A DNA stretch of 64,000 nucleotides from Protula sp. h YS-2021 (Eukaryota > Annelida > Polychaeta > Sabellida > Serpulidae): NCBI GenBank assembly GCA_949752745.1, contig OX457028.1:6134095-6198094 (forward strand). The letters run 5' to 3'. A program made the position numbers and the translations under genes. The notes under the pieces were generated by a model, which did not search any database, was not told the DNA's origin, and saw only the letters and a list, made by a program, of their open reading frames with translations. Positions 13,384 through 63,745 of the stretch are shown here, one piece after another; the stretch's first letter is position 1; each line of letters opens with the position of its first letter.

Positions 13384-13850
13384 ATGACGTATATGCCCGC
13401 TGTGTGGCTTACGTCATCTGCGCATACTATCTGGCCTGCTAAACGACGACTCATCTTTCAACTCTTTGGCGTAATAAATGAGTTATTTACCTACTGTGTG
13501 ACTAACTGGATGACTTATTTGCCCACTGTATGGCTTACCAGATGACATTTGCACACTCTATGGCTTGCTGGAAAGTTTACTTACCAGCCTGTGGCTTACT
13601 AAATGATATTTTTTACCCACTGTTTGCTTTACTGGATGACTCATTTAACCACTATATCCCTAAGCGGATGACTTATTTACCAGATGTGTGACTTACTGGA
13701 TGCGTATGTGGCTAATGTTAGTCTTATTGGATAACTTATTTCCCCAATCTATGACTAACATAACCAGTGTGTGATCTACTGAATGACTTACTTACTCATT
13801 GTATGGTTTACTTGATCACGTCTGTGCCTAATGTGTAGCTTGCTGCATGA
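13384..13850. repeat. Degenerate leading part of a tandem array
   Basis: Loosely periodic units of 40-60 bp with TGTGTGACTTACTGGATGAC and TATTTGCCCACTG motifs. They grade into the regular 64-bp array that follows and look like its older, diverged edge. Confidence 0.65.
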
Positions 13851-14905
13851 AGTATGCGCCCACCCTGTGGTTTACTCGATCATATCTGTGCCTAATGTGT
13901 AGCTTACTGCATGACATATGCGACCACTCTGTGGTTTACTCGATCATGTCTGTGCCTAATGTGTACTTTGCTGCATGACGTATGCGACCACTCTGTGGTT
14001 TACTTGATCATGTCTGTGCCCAATGTGTAGCTTGCTCCATGACGTATGCGCCCGCTTTGTGGTTTACTTGATCATGTCTGTGCCCAATGTGCAGCTTGCT
14101 GCATGACGTATGCGACCACTCTGTGGTTTACTTGATCATGTCTGTGCCCAATGTGTAGCTTGCTGCATGACGTATGCGACCACTCTGTGGTTTACTTGAT
14201 CATGTCTGTGCCTAATGTGCAGCTTGCTGCCTGACGTATGCGCCACCCTGTGGTTTACTTGATCATGTCTGTGCCCAATGTGTAGCTTGCTCCATGACGT
14301 ATGCGCTCACTTTGTGGTTTACTTGATCATGTCTGTGCCCAATGTGTAGCTTGCTCCATGACGTATGCGCCCACCCTGTGGTTTACTTGATTATGTCTGT
14401 GCCCAATGTGTAGCTTGCTCCATGACGCATGCGCCCGCTTTGTGGTTTACTTGATCATGTCTGTGCCCAATGTGTAGCTTGCTGCATGACGTATGCGACC
14501 ACCCTGTGGTTTACTTGATCATGTCTGTGCCCAATGTGTACTTTGCTGCATGACGTATGTGACCACTCTGTGGTTTATTTGATCATGTCTGTGCCCAATG
14601 TGTACTTTGCTGCATGACGTATGCGCTCACTTTGTGGTTTACTTGATCATGTCTGTGCCCAATGTGTAGCTTGCTCCATGACGCATGCGCCCACCCTGAG
14701 GTTTACTTGATCATGTCTGTGCCTAATGTGTAGCTTGCTGCATGACGTATGCGACCACTCTGTGGTTTACTTGATCATGTCTGTGCCCAATGTGTACTTT
14801 GCTGCATGACGTATGCGACCACTCTGTGGTTTACTTGATCATGTCTGTGCCTAATGTGTAGCTTGCTGCATGACGTATGCGACCACTGTATGGTTTACTG
14901 GATGA
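13851..14905. repeat. Satellite-like array, 64 bp x about 16
   Basis: About 16 copies of a 63-64 bp unit containing TGTGGTTTACTTGATCATGT, CTGTGCCCAATGTGTAGCTT, then GCTGCATGACGTATGCGACC. Variants such as GCTCCATGACG and TACTTTGCTGC recur at intervals, so there are higher-order groupings. Each unit carries TGATCA and TGACGTA, the latter a CRE-like half-palindrome. Identity between central units is about 90% or more by eye. No open frame spans it. Confidence 0.93.
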
Positions 14906-32000: not shown

Positions 32001-32214
32001 TCTAATACTCTATTACGGTTTTCTAGTATGAGAAAATTTACAAATAGGACCACTCCTAAAATAGGACCACTTCTATATTAGGAACCCTCAGATCAGTTCT
32101 ACTTGTGCTCCTATTACCGATTTCGACAGTGCACACAATAATGAGGGTTTTATATTTGCTTTGTTGACAATACAAAAGGAAACAGTGTACTCACGTATGT
32201 AATCATTGGTACAT

Positions 32215-32290
32215 TCCACGCCCCTGCGATTCGAGCCTCGGTCTCGCACGTATCCTCTGGACCAATGAACGCCAAGGCCTTGTGGTTGTA
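32215..32290 (-). mobile_element. tRNA-like segment (SINE head or tRNA relic)
   Basis: On the minus strand CATTGGTCCAGAGGATACG and GAGACCGAGGCTCGAATCGC resemble the A and B boxes of a tRNA. The arms do not all pair, so it is not a functional tRNA. It differs from the family at 26.8 kb. Confidence 0.4.
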
Positions 32291-32515
32291 CTGTGACGTC
32301 ATACCGCGTATGGATGTGAGCGAGTGCGCTCGCGTATCATTATAAATATACGTCAGCCGGTGACCTTGAAGTCTTCTCGGGTCTTTGTTGATATCGTTTA
32401 TCGCACAGACAAACGCTCCTACGTGGTACTTACTTAACGTGGGACTCTTGAGATTCGAAAAAGTTGGGCAGAAATCCTATCGGTAACTCCCTCATATCCA
32501 CACCAGTGACCTCTA
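32290..32515 (+). promoter_or_regulatory. Promoter-like GC-balanced block, possible LTR relic
   Basis: GTGACGTCATACC (a CRE), a GC-rich block and then TATAAATA at about 32,341-32,348 stand out from the AT-rich surroundings. The arrangement CRE, TATA, then CACACCAGTGACC downstream at 32,500-32,512 is reminiscent of a retroelement LTR followed by leader sequence. I find no second LTR, no reverse transcriptase and no flanking duplication, so this is weak. Confidence 0.25.
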
Positions 32516-40762: not shown

Positions 40763-40768
40763 AGTGGC
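40763..40768. repeat. Left target-site duplication AGTGGC
   Basis: AGTGGC directly precedes the first base of the palindromic element and is repeated directly after its last base at 47,043-47,048. The bases outside these hexamers do not match, so the direct repeat is exactly 6 bp. Confidence 0.88.
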
Positions 40769-40802
40769 AGTAGTAGATAAACGACAGTTTTGGCTCACTT
40801 GA

Positions 40803-41140
40803 TGACGTCATACTCTCTGGACCGGAAGTGACGTCATAGGCATAACCAAGGCGTAACCATGGTGATAATGACGTCATCAGTCACGTGACCAATGAAAAGC
40901 CAATGAAGACAATGAAGCCTCGCCCACTATCTGTCTATCATACTGTCTGGACCGGAAGTGACGTCATAGCGTCTGGACCGGAAGTGTTGTCTGGACCGGA
41001 AGTGCTGTCTGGACCGGAAGTGACGTCATGTCTGGAAGTGACGTCATCATGTCTGGACCGGAAGTGACGTCATAGTGTCTGTTTGTTTCTATCTGCTTCA
41101 GTTTTTGGATGGAGCGCGCGCGCGTGTTGGGATGACGTCA
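40803..41140. promoter_or_regulatory. Left subterminal ETS-CRE cluster
   Basis: Eight TGACGTCA palindromes, and six full plus one shortened copy of TCTGGACCGGAAGTG. Four of these run directly into a CRE to give ACCGGAAGTGACGTCA, the overlapping ETS-CRE composite known from mammalian promoters. Unit spacing is irregular (about 19-110 bp). It lies 34 bp inside the left terminus. It could bind host ETS and CREB/ATF-type factors, or it could be the subterminal binding array for an element-encoded protein; the sequence cannot decide. Confidence 0.7.
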
Positions 41141-41229
41141 TGATGAAGGGTAAACGTCACAGCAGAGTGTGCGTAAACAAACGTCATTTTGTTTTCGTAA
41201 TTTGAAATAACGGACTTCCGTTGAAGTGT

Positions 41230-42170
41230 GGAACTTATATTTGTAACATGTCGCCATTTTAACTGTGTAAAAAGTGAAAAAGTGGGATAACTTTCGTTAT
41301 AGTTGACCGATTTGAATGAAAATTTCACTGTTTGATTCAGTTTTATATCTAGTTTTGTTATAAAGTGGTCACAGGCTATTTACACCGGTGGCTATATGCA
41401 TTTTAGTAACATGCCGCCATTTTAACTTTGTAAAAAGTGAAAAAGTGAGATAACTTCCGTTATACGTGGTCGATTTACATGAAAATTTCACTGTTTGATT
41501 CAGTTTTATGTAAATTTTTAATATTAAGTGGTCACAGGCTATTTACGCCGGTGGCTGTATGCATTTTTGTAACATGCCGCCATTTTAACCTTGTAAAAAG
41601 TGGAAAATTGGCATAACTTCCGTTATACTTGGTTGATTTACATGAAAATTTCACTATTTGATTCAGTTTTATATCTAGTTTTGTTATAAAGTGGTTATAG
41701 GCTATTTGCGCAGCTGGCTGTATCATTTTTGTAACATGCCGCCATTTTAACTTTGTAAAAAGTGAAAAATTGAGATAACTTTCGTTATACTTGGTCGATT
41801 TACATGAAAATTTCACTGTTTGATTCAGTTTTATGTAACGTTTTAACATTAAGTGGTTATAGGCTATTTACACCGATGGCTGTATGCATAATGTGACATG
41901 CCGCCATTTTAACTTTGTAAAAAGTGAAAAAATGAGATAACTTTCGCTATAGTTGGTCGATTTGCATGAAACTTTCACTGTTTGGTTCAGTTTTATATCT
42001 AGTTTTTGTTATAATGTAGTCATGGGCTATTTGCGCAGCTGGCTGTAGGCATAATTTGACATTCGCCATTTTAACTTTTTAAAAAGTGGAAAAGTGTAAT
42101 AACTTTCGTTATGGTTAACCGATTTGAATGAAAATTTCACCATTGAATTCAGTTTGATGTCTTAGTTTTA
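41230..42170. repeat. Left-arm 162-bp tandem repeat x 6
   Basis: Six copies with GCCATTTTAAC cores at 41,253, 41,416, 41,579, 41,741, 41,903 and 42,065 (spacing 162-163 bp). Each copy has GTAACATGCCGCCATTTTAA, TTTGTAAAAAGTGAAAAA, ATAACTTTCGTTATA, ATGAAAATTTCACTGTTTGA and GTGGTTATAGGCTATTT. The complement of the core, AAAATGGCGGC, fits the YY1 consensus AAnATGGCGGC in four of the six copies. ATAACTTTCGTTAT is a near-palindrome. Open frames on the minus strand follow from the 54-codon unit. Confidence 0.9.
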
Positions 42171-42295
42171 CAGTAGTTTGTGCATAGGTGGGTTGTTGGA
42201 ATGGCGCGCGCCCACCATTCAAACATGTGTTTGAATTATTTTTTTTACGTCAAACTATTGTTCCACAAGTTGTTTAGCAATTGTACAACAATTGT

Positions 42296-42556
42296 TCAAC
42301 GAGCTGTTGTTCAACATGTTGTTGAACATGTTCAACATGTTCAACAACATGTTCAAGAAGTTGAACATGTTCAACATGTTCAACATGTTCACAACATGTT
42401 CAACAAGTTGAACATGTTCAACATGTTCAACAACATGTTCAACAAGTTGAACATGTTCAACATGTTCAACATGTTGTTGCACAAGTTGAACATGTTCAAC
42501 ATGTTCAACTTGTTCAACAACATGCTGTTTAACAAGTTTTTCAACAAGTTGTAGTT
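42296..42556. repeat. Left outer GTTGAACATGTTCAAC array
   Basis: A run of overlapping palindromes (GTTGAACATGTTCAAC, TTCAACAACATGTTCAA) directly downstream of the zinc-finger gene's 3' end. Each GAACATGTTC fits the p53-family half-site rule RRRCWWGYYY. Both strands stay open through it (Asn-Met-Leu-Phe or Val-Glu-His repeats), which I regard as an artefact. Confidence 0.9.
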
Positions 42557-42665
42557 GAAGCAAAGAAAAAAAAAAGAAATATGTTGAATAGGTTTATTAA
42601 TACACTTAAATACACTTAAATACACTTAAATATATACAGCTTAAATCTATAACAATATTATAACA

Positions 42666-42690
42666 TTTATTGATTTACAAAGTCTTTATT
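42666..42690 (-). terminator. Left-arm polyadenylation signals
   Basis: On the minus strand AATAAA at 42,690-42,685 and again at 42,671-42,666 lie 23-42 bp beyond the stop codon of the left zinc-finger gene, in the right place to end its transcript. Confidence 0.65.
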
Positions 42691-42712
42691 ATAAATGTTT
42701 AGTCAAATAAGT

Positions 42713-43450
42713 CTATTTTTCTTCATCTGCTTCACTCTGTTCACTGGCATCCATGTCACTTTCTTCGTCACTGCTTTCATCTTCCTCCTCCTCATCTAGA
42801 AGCTCTTCAAAGAATGCATCGTTTCTTCTTATAGCCGCCTTTAGTGCCTTTGAATACTCGTAATGTTTTTCATCAACAAAGTAATTAAAGTCTTCTAAAA
42901 TGGTTTCATAATGTTCGTTTTGTTGTAGGCGTTGGGCATATTTGAATAGTCTCATAAACAGTTGTTTAAGTCGACGCTTATAAATGGGTCGAAAGTCATC
43001 ACTTGCTATGTCACGCGCATCTTCAAGCCCTTGTTCTTCATAGTCTGAAACCTTTTCTTGAAATTTGGTATCATATTCATCGTAGACTTCTTGAACCATA
43101 TCATACCAAACAGAGTCTGCTTCTGGCTCACTTTCAGAGTCTGTTTCTGACTCACTTTCAGAGCTGCCGTCATTATCACCCTCAACACAATGTTCCATAT
43201 GTTTGAACAAAGCTTCTTGACTGCTGTATAACGCACCACATTCTGTACAAGCATGTGCATTCTTTTCAGTCATGTTGACGCTTTGACTTTCCATAGAAGA
43301 CTCATCTAAAGTTTCAGTGATAGGTGGTTTCACAGGGTTTTCCACATCTATCTCCAATTCTTCTTCTTCTGAAGTGTGAGCATTCTTTAAGTGTCTTTTA
43401 AGACTTTATGGCCAATTGTAAGATTTCAAACAAATGTTGCATTTATACAT
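42713..43450 (-). CDS. Acidic C2H2 zinc-finger protein gene, left arm (in-frame TAA)
   Basis: The frame starts at an ATG (43,450-43,448) with A at -3, 61 bp after a TATA box. It enters a standard C-x2-C-x12-H-x4-H finger, but a TAA at 43,408-43,406 falls between the second Cys and the first His. After the TAA it runs open to the stop at 42,715-42,713. No ATG lies between the TAA and the long open part; the first usable downstream ATG is at about 43,294, giving about 193 residues. This part holds a second finger (Cys-x2-Cys-x12-His, then His/Cys within CTECGALYSSQ...HMEHC), a Ser/Glu/Asp tract, a helical middle section starting WYDMVQEVYDEYD, and a strongly acidic tail. It differs from the right-arm copy by one residue (Ser for Asn after ALY). 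It may be a pseudogene, a readthrough product, or start downstream. Function unknown; nucleic-acid binding is inferred from the fingers. Confidence 0.65.
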
Positions 43451-43504
43451 CCTTTCGGTTCAACATACACTTTTCAAGTGATGAAAAAGCCTTTAAATAT
43501 AGCC

Positions 43505-43511
43505 TTATATA
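43505..43511 (-). promoter_or_regulatory. TATA box, left zinc-finger gene
   Basis: TATATAA on the minus strand, 61 bp upstream of the ATG and directly next to the inner GTTGAACATG array. It mirrors the right-arm TATA box exactly. Confidence 0.65.
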
Positions 43512-43515
43512 CAAT

Positions 43516-43612
43516 TTGTTGAACAACATGTTGAACATGTTCAACATGTTGTTGAACATGTTGTTGAACATATTGTTGAACATGTTGTTGAACATGTTGT
43601 TGAACATGTTGT
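43516..43612. repeat. Left inner GTTGAACATG array (5 units of 12 bp)
   Basis: Five 12-bp units (TTGTTGAACATG, one with ATA for ATG) next to one GAACATGTTCAACATGTTG block, directly upstream of the left TATA box. The right arm has six of the 12-bp units, so the array length differs between arms. Confidence 0.88.
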
Positions 43613-43648
43613 CTACGCCTAGGGGAGTTTAACGTCATAACGTCATTA

Positions 43649-43731
43649 TGACGTCATCATTATGACGTCATTATGACGTCATCATTATGACGTCATTATG
43701 ACGTCATCATTATGACGTCATAATGACGTCA
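43649..43731. promoter_or_regulatory. Left central CRE array, 7 x TGACGTCA
   Basis: Seven perfect TGACGTCA palindromes spaced 11 or 14 bp apart (start to start), i.e. near one helical turn. They lie between the axis and the left gene's promoter. CREB/ATF-type bZIP proteins bind this octamer in animals. Confidence 0.8.
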
Positions 43732-43760
43732 TTGGAACAGGCGCGTGCTTAATCAAAAAC

Positions 43761-43770
43761 TGACTCAGCA
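43761..43770. promoter_or_regulatory. Half-MARE/AP-1 site, left
   Basis: TGACTCAGCA is an AP-1 core with one Maf half-site; it is mirrored at 44,023-44,032. Confidence 0.45.
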
Positions 43771-43889
43771 GAATTTATTGCTGTTTGATATGGATGAAAT
43801 GCATGTCTCACTCTTCCTTTTATGCTACTTAGATGTAATCAAAATATGGTGTGTAACTCGTCAAAAATGCCAAACTTGTTAAAATTGCT

Positions 43890-43912
43890 AAAATTGCTGA
43901 CTCAGCAATTTT
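43890..43912. promoter_or_regulatory. Palindrome axis with Maf recognition element
   Basis: The turning point contains AAAATTGCTGA-C-TCAGCAATTTT. Its core TGCTGACTCAGCA (43,895-43,907) is identical to the consensus T-type Maf recognition element. The left side carries an extra 9-bp AAAATTGCT, so the arms join through a short imperfect hairpin and not at a clean unique spacer. Confidence 0.75.
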
Positions 43913-44022
43913 AACAAGTTTGGCATTTTTGACGAGTTACACACCATATTTTGATTACATCTAAGTAGCATAAAAGGAAGAGTGAGACATGCATTTCATC
44001 CATATCAAACAGCAATAAATTC

Positions 44023-44032
44023 TGCTGAGTCA
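44023..44032. promoter_or_regulatory. Half-MARE/AP-1 site, right
   Basis: TGCTGAGTCA, the mirror of the site at 43,761. Confidence 0.45.
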
Positions 44033-44061
44033 GTTTTTGATTAAGCACGCGCCTGTTCCAA

Positions 44062-44144
44062 TGACGTCATTATGACGTCATAATGATGACGTCATAATGA
44101 CGTCATAATGATGACGTCATAATGACGTCATAATGATGACGTCA
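44062..44144. promoter_or_regulatory. Right central CRE array, 7 x TGACGTCA
   Basis: Exact mirror of the left central array: seven TGACGTCA octamers with 11/14-bp spacing between the axis and the right gene's promoter. With the left array, 14 sites lie within about 500 bp between two divergent promoters. Confidence 0.8.
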
Positions 44145-44180
44145 TAATGACGTTATGACGTTAAACTCCCCTAGGCGTAG

Positions 44181-44288
44181 ACAACATGTTCAACAACATG
44201 TTCAACAACATGTTCAACAACATGTTCAACAATATGTTCAACAACATGTTCAACAACATGTTGAACATGTTCAACATGTTCAACAAAT
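44181..44288. repeat. Right inner GTTGAACATG array (6 units of 12 bp)
   Basis: Six 12-bp AACATGTTCAAC units (one with AATATG) and a GTTGAACATGTTCAACATG block, ending three bases before the right TATA box. One 12-bp unit more and one AAC triplet fewer than in the left arm. Confidence 0.88.
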
Positions 44289-44290
44289 TG

Positions 44291-44297
44291 TATATAA
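44291..44297 (+). promoter_or_regulatory. TATA box, right zinc-finger gene
   Basis: TATATAA followed by GGC, 61 bp before the first ATG of the zinc-finger frame, with transcription expected to begin near 44,320. Confidence 0.65.
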
Positions 44298-44351
44298 GGC
44301 TATGTTTAAAGGCTTTTTCATCACTTGAAAAGTGTATGTTGAACCGAAAGG

Positions 44352-45089
44352 ATGTATAAATGCAACATTTGTTTGAAATCTTACAATTGGCCATAAAGTC
44401 TTAAAAGACACTTAAAGAATGCTCACACTTCAGAAGAAGAAGAATTGGAGATAGATGTGGAAAACCCTGTGAAACCACCTATCACTGAAACTTTAGATGA
44501 GTCTTCTATGGAAAGTCAAAGCGTCAACATGACTGAAAAGAATGCACATGCTTGTACAGAATGTGGTGCGTTATACAACAGTCAAGAAGCTTTGTTCAAA
44601 CATATGGAACATTGTGTTGAGGGTGATAATGACGGCAGCTCTGAAAGTGAGTCAGAAACAGACTCTGAAAGTGAGCCAGAAGCAGACTCTGTTTGGTATG
44701 ATATGGTTCAAGAAGTCTACGATGAATATGATACCAAATTTCAAGAAAAGGTTTCAGACTATGAAGAACAAGGGCTTGAAGATGCGCGTGACATAGCAAG
44801 TGATGACTTTCGACCCATTTATAAGCGTCGACTTAAACAACTGTTTATGAGACTATTCAAATATGCCCAACGCCTACAACAAAACGAACATTATGAAACC
44901 ATTTTAGAAGACTTTAATTACTTTGTTGATGAAAAACATTACGAGTATTCAAAGGCACTAAAGGCGGCTATAAGAAGAAACGATGCATTCTTTGAAGAGC
45001 TTCTAGATGAGGAGGAGGAAGATGAAAGCAGTGACGAAGAAAGTGACATGGATGCCAGTGAACAGAGTGAAGCAGATGAAGAAAAATAG
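44352..45089 (+). CDS. Acidic C2H2 zinc-finger protein gene, right arm (in-frame TAA)
   Basis: Mirror copy of the left-arm gene. ATG at 44,352 has A at -3. An in-frame TGA at 44,340 just upstream rules out a longer 5' frame without splicing. TAA at 44,394-44,396 interrupts finger 1 between its Cys pair (CNIC) and its His pair (HLKNAH), with the 12-position spacing kept when the TAA counts as one position. The open part then runs 231 codons to TAG at 45,087. Finger 2 has Cys-x2-Cys-x12-His-x2-His-Cys. After it come a Glu/Ser/Asp tract, a helical section with DARDIASDDFRPIYKRRLKQ, and an acidic tail of about 30 residues. I do not recognise the family with certainty; it resembles, from memory only, uncharacterised C2H2 proteins found with Polinton-type elements in invertebrates. 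Confidence 0.65.
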
Positions 45090-45111
45090 ACTTATTTGAC
45101 TAAACATTTAT

Positions 45112-45136
45112 AATAAAGACTTTGTAAATCAATAAA
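45112..45136 (+). terminator. Right-arm polyadenylation signals
   Basis: AATAAA at 45,112-45,117 and 45,131-45,136, 23-42 bp after the TAG stop codon. With the TATA box this completes a compact transcription unit of about 0.85 kb. Confidence 0.65.
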
Positions 45137-45245
45137 TGTTATAATATTGTTATAGATTTAAGCTGTATATATTTAAGTGTATTTAAGTGTATTTAAGTGT
45201 ATTAATAAACCTATTCAACATATTTCTTTTTTTTTTCTTTGCTTC

Positions 45246-45506
45246 AACTACAACTTGTTGAAAAACTTGTTAAACAGCATGTTGTTGAACAAGTTGAACA
45301 TGTTGAACATGTTCAACTTGTGCAACAACATGTTGAACATGTTGAACATGTTCAACTTGTTGAACATGTTGTTGAACATGTTGAACATGTTCAACTTGTT
45401 GAACATGTTGTGAACATGTTGAACATGTTGAACATGTTCAACTTCTTGAACATGTTGTTGAACATGTTGAACATGTTCAACAACATGTTGAACAACAGCT
45501 CGTTGA
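45246..45506. repeat. Right outer GTTGAACATGTTCAAC array
   Basis: Mirror of the left outer array, directly downstream of the right gene's polyadenylation signals. Confidence 0.9.
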
Positions 45507-45640
45507 ACAATTGTTGTACAATTGCTAAACAACTTGTGGAACAATAGTTTGACGTAAAAAAAATAATTCAAACACATGTTTGAATGGTGGGCGCGCGCCA
45601 TTCCAACAACCCACCTATGCACAAACTACTGTAAAACTAA

Positions 45641-46590
45641 GACATCAAACTGAATTCAATGGTGAAATTTTCATTCAAATCGGTTAACCATAACGAAAGT
45701 TATTACACTTTTCCACTTTTTAAAAAGTTAAAATGGCGAATGTCAAATTATGCCTACAGCCAGCTGCGCAAATAGCCCATGACTACATTATAACAAAAAC
45801 TAGATATAAAACTGAACCAAACAGTGAAAGTTTCATGCAAATCGACCAACTATAGCGAAAGTTATCTCATTTTTTCACTTTTTACAAAGTTAAAATGGCG
45901 GCATGTCACATTATGCATACAGCCATCGGTGTAAATAGCCTATAACCACTTAATGTTAAAACGTTACATAAAACTGAATCAAACAGTGAAATTTTCATGT
46001 AAATCGACCAAGTATAACGAAAGTTATCTCAATTTTTCACTTTTTACAAAGTTAAAATGGCGGCATGTTACAAAAATGATACAGCCAGCTGCGCAAATAG
46101 CCTATAACCACTTTATAACAAAACTAGATATAAAACTGAATCAAATAGTGAAATTTTCATGTAAATCAACCAAGTATAACGGAAGTTATGCCAATTTTCC
46201 ACTTTTTACAAGGTTAAAATGGCGGCATGTTACAAAAATGCATACAGCCACCGGCGTAAATAGCCTGTGACCACTTAATGTTAAAAATTTACATAAAACT
46301 GAATCAAACAGTGAAATTTTCATGTAAATCGACCACGTATAACGGAAGTTATCTCACTTGTTCACTTTTTACAAAGTTAAAATGGCGGCATGTTACTAAA
46401 ATGCATATAGCCACCGGTGTAAATAGCCTGTGACCACTTTATAACAAAACTAGATATAAAACTGAATCAAACAGTGAAATTTTCATTCAAATCGGTCAAC
46501 TATAACGAAAGTTATCCCACTTTTTCACTTTTTACACAGTTAAAATGGCGACATGTTACAAATATAAGTTCCACACTTCAACGGAAGTCC
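45641..46590. repeat. Right-arm 162-bp tandem repeat x 6
   Basis: Mirror of the left array. Differences from the left include one T-to-G change (CACTTGTTCAC near 46,356) and one A/G-type change in TTAATGTTAAAA near 46,277. Confidence 0.9.
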
Positions 46591-46661
46591 GTTATTTCAA
46601 ATTACGAAAACAAAATGACGTTTGTTTACGCACACTCTGCTGTGACGTTTACCCTTCATCA

Positions 46662-47008
46662 TGACGTCATCCCAACACGCGCGCGCGCTCCATCCAAAAA
46701 CTGAAGCAGATAGAAACAAACAGACACTATGACGTCACTTCCGGTCCAGACATGATGACGTCACTTCCAGACATGACGTCACTTCCGGTCCAGACAGCAC
46801 TTCCGGTCCAGACAACACTTCCGGTCCAGACGCTATGACGTCACTTCCGGTCCAGACAGTATGATAGACAGATAGTGGGCGAGGCTTCATTGTCTTCATT
46901 GATTTCATTGGCTTTTCATTGGTCACGTGACTGATGACGTCATTATCACCATGGTTACGCCTTGGTTATGCCTATGACGTCACTTCCGGTCCAGACAGTA
47001 TGACGTCA
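46662..47008. promoter_or_regulatory. Right subterminal ETS-CRE cluster
   Basis: Mirror of the left cluster: eight TGACGTCA and the CACTTCCGGTCCAGA units. It carries a 9-bp tandem addition near 46,895-46,910 (CATTGATTTCATTGG) that is absent from the left arm. Confidence 0.7.
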
Positions 47009-47042
47009 TCAAGTGAGCCAAAACTGTCGTTTATCTACTACT

Positions 47043-47048
47043 AGTGGC
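47043..47048. repeat. Right target-site duplication AGTGGC
   Basis: Direct copy of the hexamer at 40,763-40,768, beginning at the base after the element's terminal CT. Confidence 0.88.
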
Positions 47049-53035: not shown

Positions 53036-55014
53036 GAGCAAACAACACATTTCTAGAGTTGTTATCATTCTTTATTACTTAAAAGGGGGTACGAATAGGT
53101 TAGGCTCAATGATAACAGAACTTTTCAAAGAAGGTGTGTTCTTTGTATAGCTGCAATGCCACGATGTCAGCTAGTGTATCAAAACTTGATACCACAGGGA
53201 TGTTGGAGAATTTGATACCACTTATAATCATGGTAATAGCAAAAAAGATTATTGTGAAAACAAATGCATCCTATATCTTCAATTACAACCACGGGTTACA
53301 TTACAGGCAAGTTACGTCATGGAATCTTGTAACTCCTACGCGGAAAACTAACTCATGTAATTCAGTACCTCATGAAAATACTGACATTTCAGTGTACAGA
53401 ATGTAAATAAAAGGTTTTACTGGTAAGAATGGCGATCAGATCAATGGTTAGTGACGCATTGATACCAGCTCATAAATGAAATAAGAACCTAATATAACAC
53501 CAAAAACACGCAATCGCAAGCGGGAAATTATTCATAGACTAATTTAAAAACGTTTATATTTCGGTTTCGTTTACAAGGAAAAGGCAGTTCTGAAGTGAAC
53601 ATATACAAAACTGATATGCAACTACATACTTCTTATACCGATGGAATCTCTGATTTGATATTTTAATTGTCTAAACAAATCAACTGTGTTTTTGTTTTCC
53701 ACATAAAACAGATTAAGCAATAATATAGTAACTACAACGAAAATCCACCAGAATAAGGCCAAGTAAGTGTTATTGTTGGAACAACTTTTATGACAAAGAC
53801 AAAACATGCATTTATTTGCAGATATACACCAGAACCCCGGGAGTCGAACCACCGTAGGTACATTGTTGCATATGGAACTACTGAAATGGGAATACTCCAC
53901 CAATCCGGATGTGGAACTATTCTGGCTTAGTCCCAAACATGATCCTTTTTCTCATGTTCAGGAAAATTTCCAACCGGCTACCTATCTTAAATGCTCTTAG
54001 ATAAGTTCAATAAACAAAGCATGTCTCAAGACTACTCATATCTGGATACAACTGACTTTGCGTCACGGTATTTCCACAGAAAAATGTTTAAAATTTAAAA
54101 TTTGAAGTACAGCAAAATAATTATTAACTGCAAACAGTTATTACAGCGTACACCTGTTGATGTCCTTAAATAAGGTGTTAGTTTTACGTAATGGATATGC
54201 ATTGAAAAAAAGATTTTTTTTGCTTCTATGCTTTCAAAGCAGCGATGTAACATCCACAGTAAAGCTCATTGGCATCAGTCAATTTCTTTACAAAAAGTTA
54301 AGGAAATGAAGAGAAACAGCTGTGTGTGCATTTGTCGAACGAGTTCATCCATTTAGTTTCAATTCATAACACTAATTTTTTTAATTTTAACTTTCATTTT
54401 AAACAACTTTTTTTCAGTTCTTTTATAATTTTGATATTGTAATCTTTGTTTTTAATTTGCAAAGCCATTTAATTATCTAGCCAACTCGTCTTCAAATCAA
54501 TAACAAATAAAAAACGAGATGGCTGAAATTCTACTATTGCATTAACTGCTATAGTTTTCAAAGCTTTTACAAAATATAACTGGTGTTATCTTTGCAATAA
54601 AAAGTGTCATTCCCTTTTAACTCCAGTATACTTCCTTTCTGATGCTTTTAATTCATAAATGCCATTTAAAATTCGGATTGTTATTATGAAAAGAGTTGTT
54701 GCTTAACCCTACACCGATGACGTCACAGACTCATATTTAAGTCAAAATGGCTAAATAAATATCCCAATATTAGTTGTGGTTGATCTTCATCCTGTGGCGG
54801 TTATGAGGCTAACAAATGAACCACACGGGATAACTGAAGCATGGTGTAGTAGCTGTTCAAAAAGAAAGCCCCCTCATCAGGTACCGGCGTAGACGGTGCT
54901 GTACTTAGGTCGTTGTTGATTTCCAAATGGAGCGATCAATTATGAAGATGTCGCAGTTTTGGTAAATTAAAGTTTGCTTTGCTACAAAGATCTGCCACAG
55001 CTGGTGTACTTACA

Positions 55015-55155
55015 ATTGGTCTAACGACAACCGACAATTGGTCGAACGACATTTGATTTATCGACATTTGGCCTATAGATAATTGGTCTGCCTAAAATTC
55101 ATTTATCGACAAATGGTCTGGCGACAATTCACATGACATTTTGTCTAACCTCAAT
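55015..55155. repeat. CGACAATTGGTCTA repeat, left copy
   Basis: Eight or so degenerate units of 14-21 bp (CGACAATTGGTC, CGACATTTGATTTAT). The matching array in the duplicate at 63,440-63,745 is twice as long. Confidence 0.75.
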
Positions 55156-61960: not shown

Positions 61961-62953
61961 ATCTTGTAACTCCTACGCATATTCATAGACTAATTGAATA
62001 TCGTTTATATTTCGGTTTCGCTTACGAGGAAAAGGCAATTCTAAAGTGAAAATAAACAAAACTACAGAAGAACAGTCATGGGACTGATATGCTACTACAT
62101 ACTTCTTATATCAGTGGGATCTGATGTTATATTTTGATTGTCTAAACAAATCAACTTTGTTTTTGTTATACATATAAACCCGATTACGCAATAATGTAGT
62201 AACTACAATGAAAATCCATCCCAATAAGGCAAAGCAAGTGTTTTTGGAACAATTTTTGTGACAAGGACAAAATATGCATTTGTTTACAGATATAAATCAG
62301 AACCCCAGGAGTCGGACTATCGCAGGTACATTGTTGCAGATAGAACCAAGGAAATGGGACGACTCCTGAAATGGAAGTATTTTGGTTCAGTCCCAAGTGT
62401 GGTCCGATATACCCAGGCTGGAAGACCTCCAATTGGCTACCTATCTTAAACGTTATTTAAAAGGTCCAATAAACGAATTTTATCCCAAAACTACCCATAT
62501 CTGAATACAGTTTTATTTAAATTAATGTTTAAAATTTAAATTTTGAAGTACAGTAAAATAATTAATTATTTTACAAAAACATTTGTTACAGCGTAAAGCT
62601 GTTGATAACCTTAAGTAAGGGTCTTAGGTTTAGATACCAGATATATATATTTTAAGAAAAAGTGACTTTGCATCTTAAATTGAAGGAAGTGGTGCAAAGT
62701 CTCCACAAAAGCTTACTGATATCTGGCATTTTCTTTCTAAAACGTTAGAAAAATAAAGAGAAACAGCTGTGTATGAATTTGTCGAACGATTTCATGCATT
62801 CAGTTCCAATTCGTAACACAAATTCATTTCATTTTGACTTTCAAACTACATGTTTTTACGTCTTTTCTAATTTTGTGTTTCAACTTTTGTTTTTAATTCG
62901 TAAAGTCGTTTTGATTATTTAGCAAACTCGTTTTCGAATCAATAACGAATCAA

Positions 62954-62954
<1 letters not shown>

Positions 62955-62985
<31 letters not shown>

Positions 62986-62987
62986 TC
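62955..62987. repeat. (CTA)n microsatellite
   Basis: An ACT/CTA run of about 10 units, absent from the matching position in the left duplicate. Confidence 0.93.
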
Positions 62988-63439
62988 GCAATGACGGCCA
63001 CAGTTTTCAATGTTTTTACCAAATATAACTAGTTTTGTCTTTACAACAGAAAATGGCTTTTCCATTTAATTCCAGCATATTTCCTTTTTGATGTGTTTTA
63101 GTCATTAATGTTATTTAAAATTCGGATAGTTATTATAAAAAGATAACCGGTTGCGCATTCCGACACCGGGCACGTAACAGATTCATATTTCAATCCATGG
63201 CCAAAATTAAATATTATGTTATTAGTTGTTGGTGATATTCACCGCTAACAGATGATCCACGCGGGATAACTGAGACATGGTATAAGAGCTGTTCAAACAG
63301 ACTCATCAGCGCCATGCTGAAGAGGTTTTAGAATTAGCTCATTGTTGATTTCCTCATGGTGCTATCAATTGTGAAGATGTCGCAGCCTTTGTTAATTAAA
63401 ATTCGCCTTACTACAAAGATATACCACAACTGGTGTATT

Positions 63440-63745
63440 TACATTTGATCTAGCGACAACTGATCCAACGACAAATCACATAGCGACAAATGGTCTACAG
63501 ACAATTTGTCTACTGACAATTGATCTAGCCACAACTGGCCCAACGACAAATCATCTAGCGACAACGCTCTACCAACAATTGATCTACTGACAATTGATCT
63601 AGCCACAATTGATCTAGACACAAAATGGTCGGCGATAATTCATCTAGAGACGATTCACCTGGCAACAATTCATCCGGAGATTATTCATCTGGCAGCAATT
63701 GGTCTAGGGAAAATTCATGTAGTGACATTTTTTCTAGCCATAAAT
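63440..63745. repeat. CGACAATTGATCTA repeat, right copy
   Basis: About 20 units of 13-15 bp (CGACAATTGATCTAG, CGACAAATCATCTAG). AATTGATC and CAATTG recur. A minus-strand frame reads Leu-Ser-Leu-Asp-Gln repeats, an artefact. Confidence 0.85.

Follow-up and report, generated by a model that had tools for sequence, protein, structure and literature searches.

In a 64,000-nt stretch of the genome of the serpulid polychaete Protula sp. h YS-2021 (assembly GCA_949752745.1, contig OX457028.1, positions 6,134,095 to 6,198,094; hereafter, the window) lies a mobile element of 6,274 bp whose inverted repeat extends over its full length and which carries one zinc-finger gene in each arm. We propose that this element is probably a non-autonomous satellite of the Polintons of the same genome, in which fold-back, self-primed strands generated symmetrical genomes that are mobilised by Polinton enzymes and whose two arms correct each other. 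The proposal builds on the observed anatomy of the element, its target duplications, the ends it shares with Polintons, the family of its copies, the concerted change of the arms and the presence of several turn points within the family.

Palindromic copies with Polinton ends

Self-alignment of the element (40769-47042 versus 47042-40769) gives 98.98% identity from end to end, bearing out the two inverted 3.1-kb arms over the whole element that an initial annotation of this DNA had described. Between the arms there are 5 substitutions and 3 indels, of 9, 3 and 12 bp; both the 3-bp and the 12-bp indel lie within a tandem repeat. The ends read AGTAGT...ACTACT, that is, AG...CT of the (AGT)2 type, and within the window AGTAGTAGATAAACG occurs once, at 40769, and its complement once, with its last base at 47042. 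Outside both ends stands the 6-bp direct duplication AGTGGC, also reported in the annotation, and between 40,000 and 48,000 this sequence is found only at these two flanking places. From end to centre, each arm consists of a motif-rich terminus, a 162-bp array, the gene flanked by GTTGAAC-type repeats, TGACGTCA repeats and the centre; CCGGAAGTGACGTCA occurs 8 times in the element and 0 times elsewhere in the window. The single gene type noted earlier is likewise present, as one zinc-finger gene copy per arm, divergent from the centre.

The palindrome is real, chance origin being excluded by 3.1-kb arms at 99% identity together with the genome-wide terminus counts, compared with their control, given below. 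Fold-back artefacts in long reads have been described (PMC12870357), but we give hardly any credence to an artefact of assembly or of long-read fold-back here, considering the differing flanks joined by a perfect duplication, the non-identical arms and the many copies at different sites.

In the 863-Mb assembly (218 contigs), the 15-nt terminus of the element occurs at 10 places, 5 forward and 5 reverse, compared with 0 and 2 for the terminus read backwards as a control. Pairs of this terminus bound a 17,368-bp element (C2), a 5,479-bp element (C3), the window element and a 4,504-bp element (C5), and all four, the window element included, are flanked by perfect 6-bp duplications that differ from one another (ATCGTG, ACTGTT, AGTGGC and CCATTC). 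The 5.5-kb and 4.5-kb elements each hold one stop-free copy of the zinc-finger gene. A fifth terminus pair (C9:42581626-42590363) is outward-facing and 8.7 kb apart.

The 17.4-kb element appears to be a full-length Polinton with a shared terminus, for which the initial annotation had suggested looking. Its ends and those of the window element are ~93% identical over ~270-290 bp, and its integrase core (rve), Chromo, Pox_A32 and Adeno_IVa2 matches exceed the Pfam cut-offs, from which its ATPase is predicted to be a packaging ATPase of the A32/IVa2 type. A Peptidase_C5-like protease scores slightly under the cut-off (20.2 versus 21.3). One frame is a putative polymerase, assigned by its motifs (YADFE, DTDS), and another, unmatched in Pfam and PHROGs searches, is a capsid gene by our guess from its letters and from where it lies. 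In the examined pieces of this Polinton, no zinc-finger gene was found. The polymerase-like frame (L052 1326-4220) also contains an endonuclease VII-like stretch (PHROGs E 7.5e-6; Pfam E 9.5e-4, under cut-off). For the Polinton integrase, the best 106 of 9,098 first-look candidates were scored; all are 99-100% identical and 102 of the 106 are stop-free. This genome thus contains a Polinton population that has recently expanded.

A wider view comes from the end of another palindrome, C2:78.62, which has 177 genome occurrences versus 0 for the control. Among 100 listed places with this end, 41 elements could be paired, 27 spanning 12.4-18.9 kb and 14 spanning 0.65-8.3 kb. A listed integrase is present in 5 of the long elements and in 0 of the short ones; listed zinc-finger genes are absent from the long elements, and at least 4 of the short ones have zinc-finger genes (3 from the best-150 list described below, plus C2:78.62 itself). 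Of 10 paired elements sampled, 9 have 6-bp duplications (5/5 integrase-bearing, 4/5 small). A 655-bp element with a 19-nt Polinton end at both sides (C4:46864032-46864686) is a possible miniature.

The window element itself belongs to a family. A search with the 3.1-kb arm gave 325 genome matches and, among the matches listed, 29 sites including the window, a set that corresponds to 29 scored candidates and is a lower bound on arm copies. Duplications were judged at the 15 of these sites, window included, that have both ends in the examined stretches, and 13 of them show perfect, mostly different 6-bp duplications, in line with the many copies with different duplications that the initial annotation had named as a sign in its favour. 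Nine of the 13 were evident from the first comparison and four (C8:12.67, C9:40.81, C5:82.02 and C6:18.80) after every AGTAG end had been tried, those of C5:82.02 and C6:18.80 being less certain as they lie in repeat-like sequence. TTATAA matches in this search lie inside the arms and are uncounted. C9:40.81 had at first seemed to be without a duplication, an impression overturned when the wider search of ends found AGCATG flanking both sides. Several relatives begin with AGTAGG in place of the (AGT)2 type.

Searching with the related protein P0001, of which the best 150 of 6,795 candidates were scored, we found 148 stop-free genes and 2 with a stop. These 150 fall into 125 loci, namely 25 neighbouring pairs (23 divergent, 1 convergent, 1 tandem) and 100 singles; the set excludes the broken genes of the window and weaker copies, and a partner outside the set may exist for some of the singles. 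A listed integrase is found within 25 kb of only 3 of the 150 genes. The palindrome is thus one form of a larger family that includes single-gene forms between long terminal repeats, a refinement of the initial annotation.

These findings place the ends of the window element as Polinton ends, with insertion that leaves 6-bp duplications. By its ends, its duplications and its shared terminus, we classify the element from sequence as a non-autonomous Polinton, a relationship that the annotation had already suggested and that the shared terminus and the multiple copies with 6-bp duplications support. It does not carry the gene set of an autonomous Polinton (integrase, ATPase, protease, capsid and protein-primed polymerase), and its open-frame lists, from which the zinc-finger frame only was searched against families, contain no other frame of transposase or Polinton core-gene size. 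The ends of Foldback/Galileo elements differ from those of the window element. Such elements, which use a P-superfamily transposase, do resemble it in having long inverted repeats that contain internal repeats (PMC3573991). Still, we consider it very improbable that the element is a cut-and-paste transposon of that type, its long inverted repeats produced by gap repair and unrelated to Polinton replication, since it shares its ends, its 6-bp duplications and its subterminal sequence with this genome's Polintons and a frame of transposase size is absent from its open-frame lists.

Turn points of the palindromes

The way the palindrome turns at its centre points to its origin. The right end of the Polinton reads, unfolded, ...TTAAAATTGCT GACTCAGCA GAATTTTACTTG; GACTCAGCA GAATTTTACTTATG is the reading of a second Polinton-type end, which adjoins C9:40.81. 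The window strand at the turn reads ...TTAAAATTGCT AAAATTGCT GACTCAGCA, and then continues with ATTTTAACAAG, which is a copy of the preceding strand. Hence, GACTCAGCA is followed by GAATTTT in the two Polinton-type ends, whereas in the palindromes it is followed by ATTTTAAC, a copy of their own upstream strand. The turn sequence TGCTGACTCAGCA is carried unfolded by the Polinton, as snap-back synthesis would have it. The AGCA at 43904-43907 is able to pair with the TGCT at 43886-43889 across a 14-nt loop, and a strand whose 3′ end lies at AGCA and pairs with that upstream TGCT over these 14 nt would yield exactly the product observed in the window.

Other members of the family turn elsewhere. 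Among the divergent pairs of the best-150 set, centres were read in 20 of 23 (C4:12.72 and C6:14.36 were read separately, and C2:92.40 is not included): the 14-nt centre is found in 2 and a centre of 25 nt in 8, while 5 belong to class F, 3 to class E, and 2 are of other kinds. In class F, a spacer of 174-222 nt has GACTCAGCA joined to TGACGTCA repeats, a junction read in L058 and L060 and inferred from spacing for the other three. In class E, that junction is repeated as its mirror image, placed around a second turn within the TGACGTCA repeats; judged from these sequences, class E palindromes look folded twice, and this class is hard to explain otherwise than by fold-back. C6:14.36 turns inside the GTTGAAC repeats 5′ of the gene, with arms 98.4% identical, and C3:106.13 is a convergent palindrome that turns in repeats 3′ of the gene. 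We therefore add to the initial annotation that fold-back (snap-back) synthesis, with several turn points, is the likely cause of the palindromic form.

Let us consider instead that one founder palindrome spread, and that the other centres are later central deletions or products of slippage between self-complementary repeats. The 14-nt centre recurs at 11 of the 29 listed sites including the window, in some with one or two bases altered, as such spreading would predict; GACGTC and GTTGAAC repeats are present in both inverted and direct orientation, and the palindrome C8:46.90 has an altered 14-nt-type centre that is also found in copies whose one arm is cut at arm position 1904. However, the convergent C3:106.13 is folded on the opposite side of the gene and so cannot derive from central deletion, one edge is exactly GACTCAGCA in several forms, as expected of a recurrent 3′ end, and class E mirrors the class F junction around its second turn. 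On balance, we regard a single founder as unlikely, though it deserves to be kept in mind. We have also dropped the notion that every private centre form marks an independent fold-back; those of C8:1.79, C5:82.02 and C1:71.79 fit deletion equally well.

Two centres show additional features. That of L062 (C6:1175580-1176430) contains sequence absent from the window's arm, possibly a nested insertion, and that of L045 (C8:12668700-12675400) carries a second, nested inverted rearrangement.

Arms that change in concert and the gene they carry

The arms of a copy evolve in concert. Over a gene core of ~950 bp (30 arms, partial arms excluded), mean divergence is 0.27% between the two arms within one copy (11 copies, maximum 0.87%) and 1.63% when arms from different copies are compared (424 pairs, least 0.10%). 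In a set of 50 cores with 18 pairs, from which matches below about 880 bases were dropped, 37 copy-private changes are found in both arms versus 26 in one arm, whereas random re-pairing of the arms leaves 0.04 shared private changes on average and 1 at most (200 trials). Sister arms are recovered in the tree in 12 of the 18 pairs. Six of the 18 have zero shared private changes; such pairs either show one or more single-arm changes or arm differences, or have arms without any difference. Stop codons are present in 8 of the 49 full-length genes of the examined loci and are spread over five copies. Those at codon 15 (window), 48 (C2:33.73) and 186 (C2:78.62) are shared by the two arms of a single copy and found nowhere else among the 49, and those at codon 56 (C2:96.12) and 129 (C9:4.47) are in a single arm. 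The shared TAA of the window copies does not appear in the initial annotation.

In the outermost 300 bp, with gap columns counted, the mean difference is 3.5% within copies (11 copies; window 6%, C7:1.40 28%), against 59% for comparisons between copies (220 pairs, least 12%). Being alike within and divergent between copies, the ends were exchanged too, on both arms, and most simply before insertion. This bears on the scenario in which a long-terminal-repeat element had its arms kept alike after insertion by chromosomal gene conversion, as in sex-chromosome palindromes, with no role for replication. Arm identity alone would fit such conversion, as would the survival of arm differences near the centre. 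We nevertheless consider it improbable, because the contrast between the outer 300 bp within and between copies extends right up to the duplications, 8 arm differences have been retained in C2:96.12 and C7:1.40, and the turn points are left unexplained.

The gene product has C2H2 zinc fingers, one of them with an E of 4.5e-5, just below the family cut-off, and an acidic tail. Its relatives include P0001 (45%) and P0002 (59%); protein database relatives numbered 2, later 4, each on one short ENA contig. Viral contigs contained no 25-nt terminus and gave 192 pattern matches for the protein with zero confirmed relatives, and a solved-structure search with the protein alignment returned 79 matches up to E 1, of which the 60 shown are nearly all zinc-finger proteins. 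AATAAA signals lie downstream of the right gene copy, and the left copy is its mirror. Across 872 of 1,176 gene pairs, those with at least 10 differences each and not independent of one another, pN/pS is 0.35 (0.0147/0.0422). Selection therefore maintains the gene across much of the family, even though it is broken in the window element. Our guess is that the protein is a DNA-binding regulator acting on the motif-rich ends.

Proposed replication cycle and known systems

How might such an element propagate? Because it shares Polinton ends and has no integrase gene, the Polinton integrase would insert it in trans, leaving the 6-bp duplication. The Polinton protein-primed polymerase would copy it from both ends, displacing single strands, a mode suggested by kinship with adenoviruses and by the AGT end repeats, which are expected to serve jumping-back (PMC8097293). 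A displaced or nascent strand ending ...GACTCAGCA in the small hairpin might then fold back, its AGCA pairing with the upstream TGCT, and prime its own synthesis outward to its own end; the junction sequences argue for such self-priming at a hairpin or a self-complementary repeat. The product would have two identical Polinton ends, a doubled zinc-finger gene and no other gene. Palindromic genomes would subsequently replicate and re-insert as palindromes, and fold-back would have recurred within the family at other points. A full-length hairpin formed in each replication cycle would let one arm correct or rewrite the other. While the pattern of arm correction is observed, its timing during replication, rather than on the chromosome, is what we infer from the exchange of ends on both arms. 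Adenoviruses repair one end from the other through panhandles and, by analogy, the entire genome of the window element would correspond to such an end. Whether the element represents a self-correcting palindromic replicon, that is, a Polinton satellite lineage repeatedly born by fold-back with arms copied onto each other during replication, seems to us evenly balanced. If so, each genome would carry its own repair template, and damage would also be fixed in both copies, as the shared stop codons illustrate.

A number of points weigh against this scheme. No polymerase family was matched for the 17.4-kb Polinton in Pfam, PHROGs or solved structures, and no replication intermediate, virion or read was seen in this assembly-based analysis. 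The turn hairpin is not unusually stable for its composition (folding energy z 0.31 and -0.12), scores on which an exceptionally stable hairpin was rejected. Loss of central sequence from a single founder palindrome could account for some of the turn points. One of the 10 sampled paired elements has no duplication, C1:4.90 duplicates 5 of 6 bases, and C2:96.12 has 7 bp with a one-base slip. In the tree, 6 of the 18 arm pairs are non-sister, most of them having near-identical neighbours. In C2:96.12, where 8 sites distinguish the arms, each arm is closer to C1:4.90 than to the other; the arms of C7:1.40 also differ at 8 sites and are by distance nearer another copy, in one arm by a hair. Lastly, C1:4.90, C1:71.40 and C2:96.12 have one near-centre arm-to-arm difference in common, which indicates that it was inherited through transposition and that the arms are not fully rewritten in each round; we have accordingly dropped complete rebuilding from one arm every round. 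The same observation establishes, for these copies, spread as a palindrome. In the remaining copies the shared centre could come from repeated folding at the same place.

To our knowledge, Polinton replication has been deduced from gene content and never watched. The insertions described here look like fixed footprints of a folded-back single-stranded intermediate, and this genome, rich in recent Polinton copies, is one in which the mode of Polinton replication can be tested. The family would also offer a satellite-like Polinton dependant that carries a constrained gene of its own (pN/pS about 0.35), and a natural system of co-evolving palindrome arms in which exchanged ends and private mutations can be counted.

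The features of the element are collected in Table 1, in which the names of the ETS/CRE-like motifs are presumptive. Elsewhere in the window, an exon-like open frame at 32153-32476 (-) with a Pfam ANF_receptor match (E 2e-12) is probably part of a host receptor gene, 13804-14903 is a tandem array of a 64-bp unit, repeated about 17 times at ~90-92% similarity, and 53529-55031 and 61980-63460 form a 1.5-kb direct repeat, 74% identical, with short tandem repeats nearby.

Table 1. Coordinates of the palindromic element and its parts within the window
Feature	Position	Strand	Details
Mobile element	40769-47042		6,274 bp; inverted repeat across full length; self-alignment
Left target-site duplication AGTGGC	40763-40768	+	read from the letters
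Right target-site duplication AGTGGC	47043-47048	+	read from the letters
Left arm	40769-43889	+	3,121 bp; begins with AGTAGTAGATAAACG
Right arm	43904-47042	-	3,139 bp; complement of left arm; ends with CGTTTATCTACTACT
Centre (spacer)	43890-43903		14 nt; AAAATTGCTGACTC
TGCTGACTCAGCA, small hairpin at turn	43895-43907	+	sequence reading
Outer terminal region with ETS/CRE-like motifs	40769-41060	+	motif count, end comparison
~162-bp repeat array, left arm	41240-42169	+	5.7 copies; mirror 45633-46562
GTTGAAC-type repeats downstream of gene	42320-42519	+	mirror 45283-45482
Zinc-finger/acidic protein gene, left copy	42713-43450	-	in-frame TAA 43406-43408 (codon 15)
GTTGAAC-type self-complementary repeats upstream of gene	43516-43612	+	mirror 44181-44267
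TGACGTCA repeats adjoining centre	43640-43733	+	mirror 44061-44153
TATATAAG box upstream of right gene	44291-44298	+	mirror at 43504
Zinc-finger/acidic protein gene, right copy	44352-45089	+	same TAA at 44394-44396

Vertebrate Mavericks have an (AGT)2//(ACT)2 end motif and 6-bp duplications (PMC8097293; for general features of Polintons, see PMC6431247), and the window element resembles Polintons/Mavericks in its AGT-repeat ends, its 6-bp duplications and the terminus plus ~280 bp that it has in common with a Polinton of the same genome. It differs from them in its size of 6.3 kb versus ~17 kb, in its want of core genes, in an inverted repeat that makes up the whole element, and in its zinc-finger gene. 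We found no description of palindromic Polinton relatives in the open-licence literature at the level of titles and abstracts, which is weak evidence of absence. Yeast fold-back inversions involve hairpin priming with small or large loops and, rarely, two sequential hairpins (PMC7467729); unlike the window element, they concern chromosomal breaks and no mobile element. The invertron plasmids pAL2-1 and kalilo are linear and protein-capped with large terminal inverted repeats, like the form that we propose for the window element, and racquet or panhandle intermediates have been proposed for them (PMC1864894). They differ in being mitochondrial plasmids that encode their own polymerases. Symmetrical defective genomes of adenoviruses are self-complementary, with one viral end in duplicate. 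The same holds for the snap-back genomes of adeno-associated virus (AAV), which have been described as satellite-like regulators, and for the window element (PMC8235507 for AAV). In contrast to these viral forms, which are particles of an infection, the form found in the window consists of host-genome insertions at many sites, with target duplications, in a persisting lineage.

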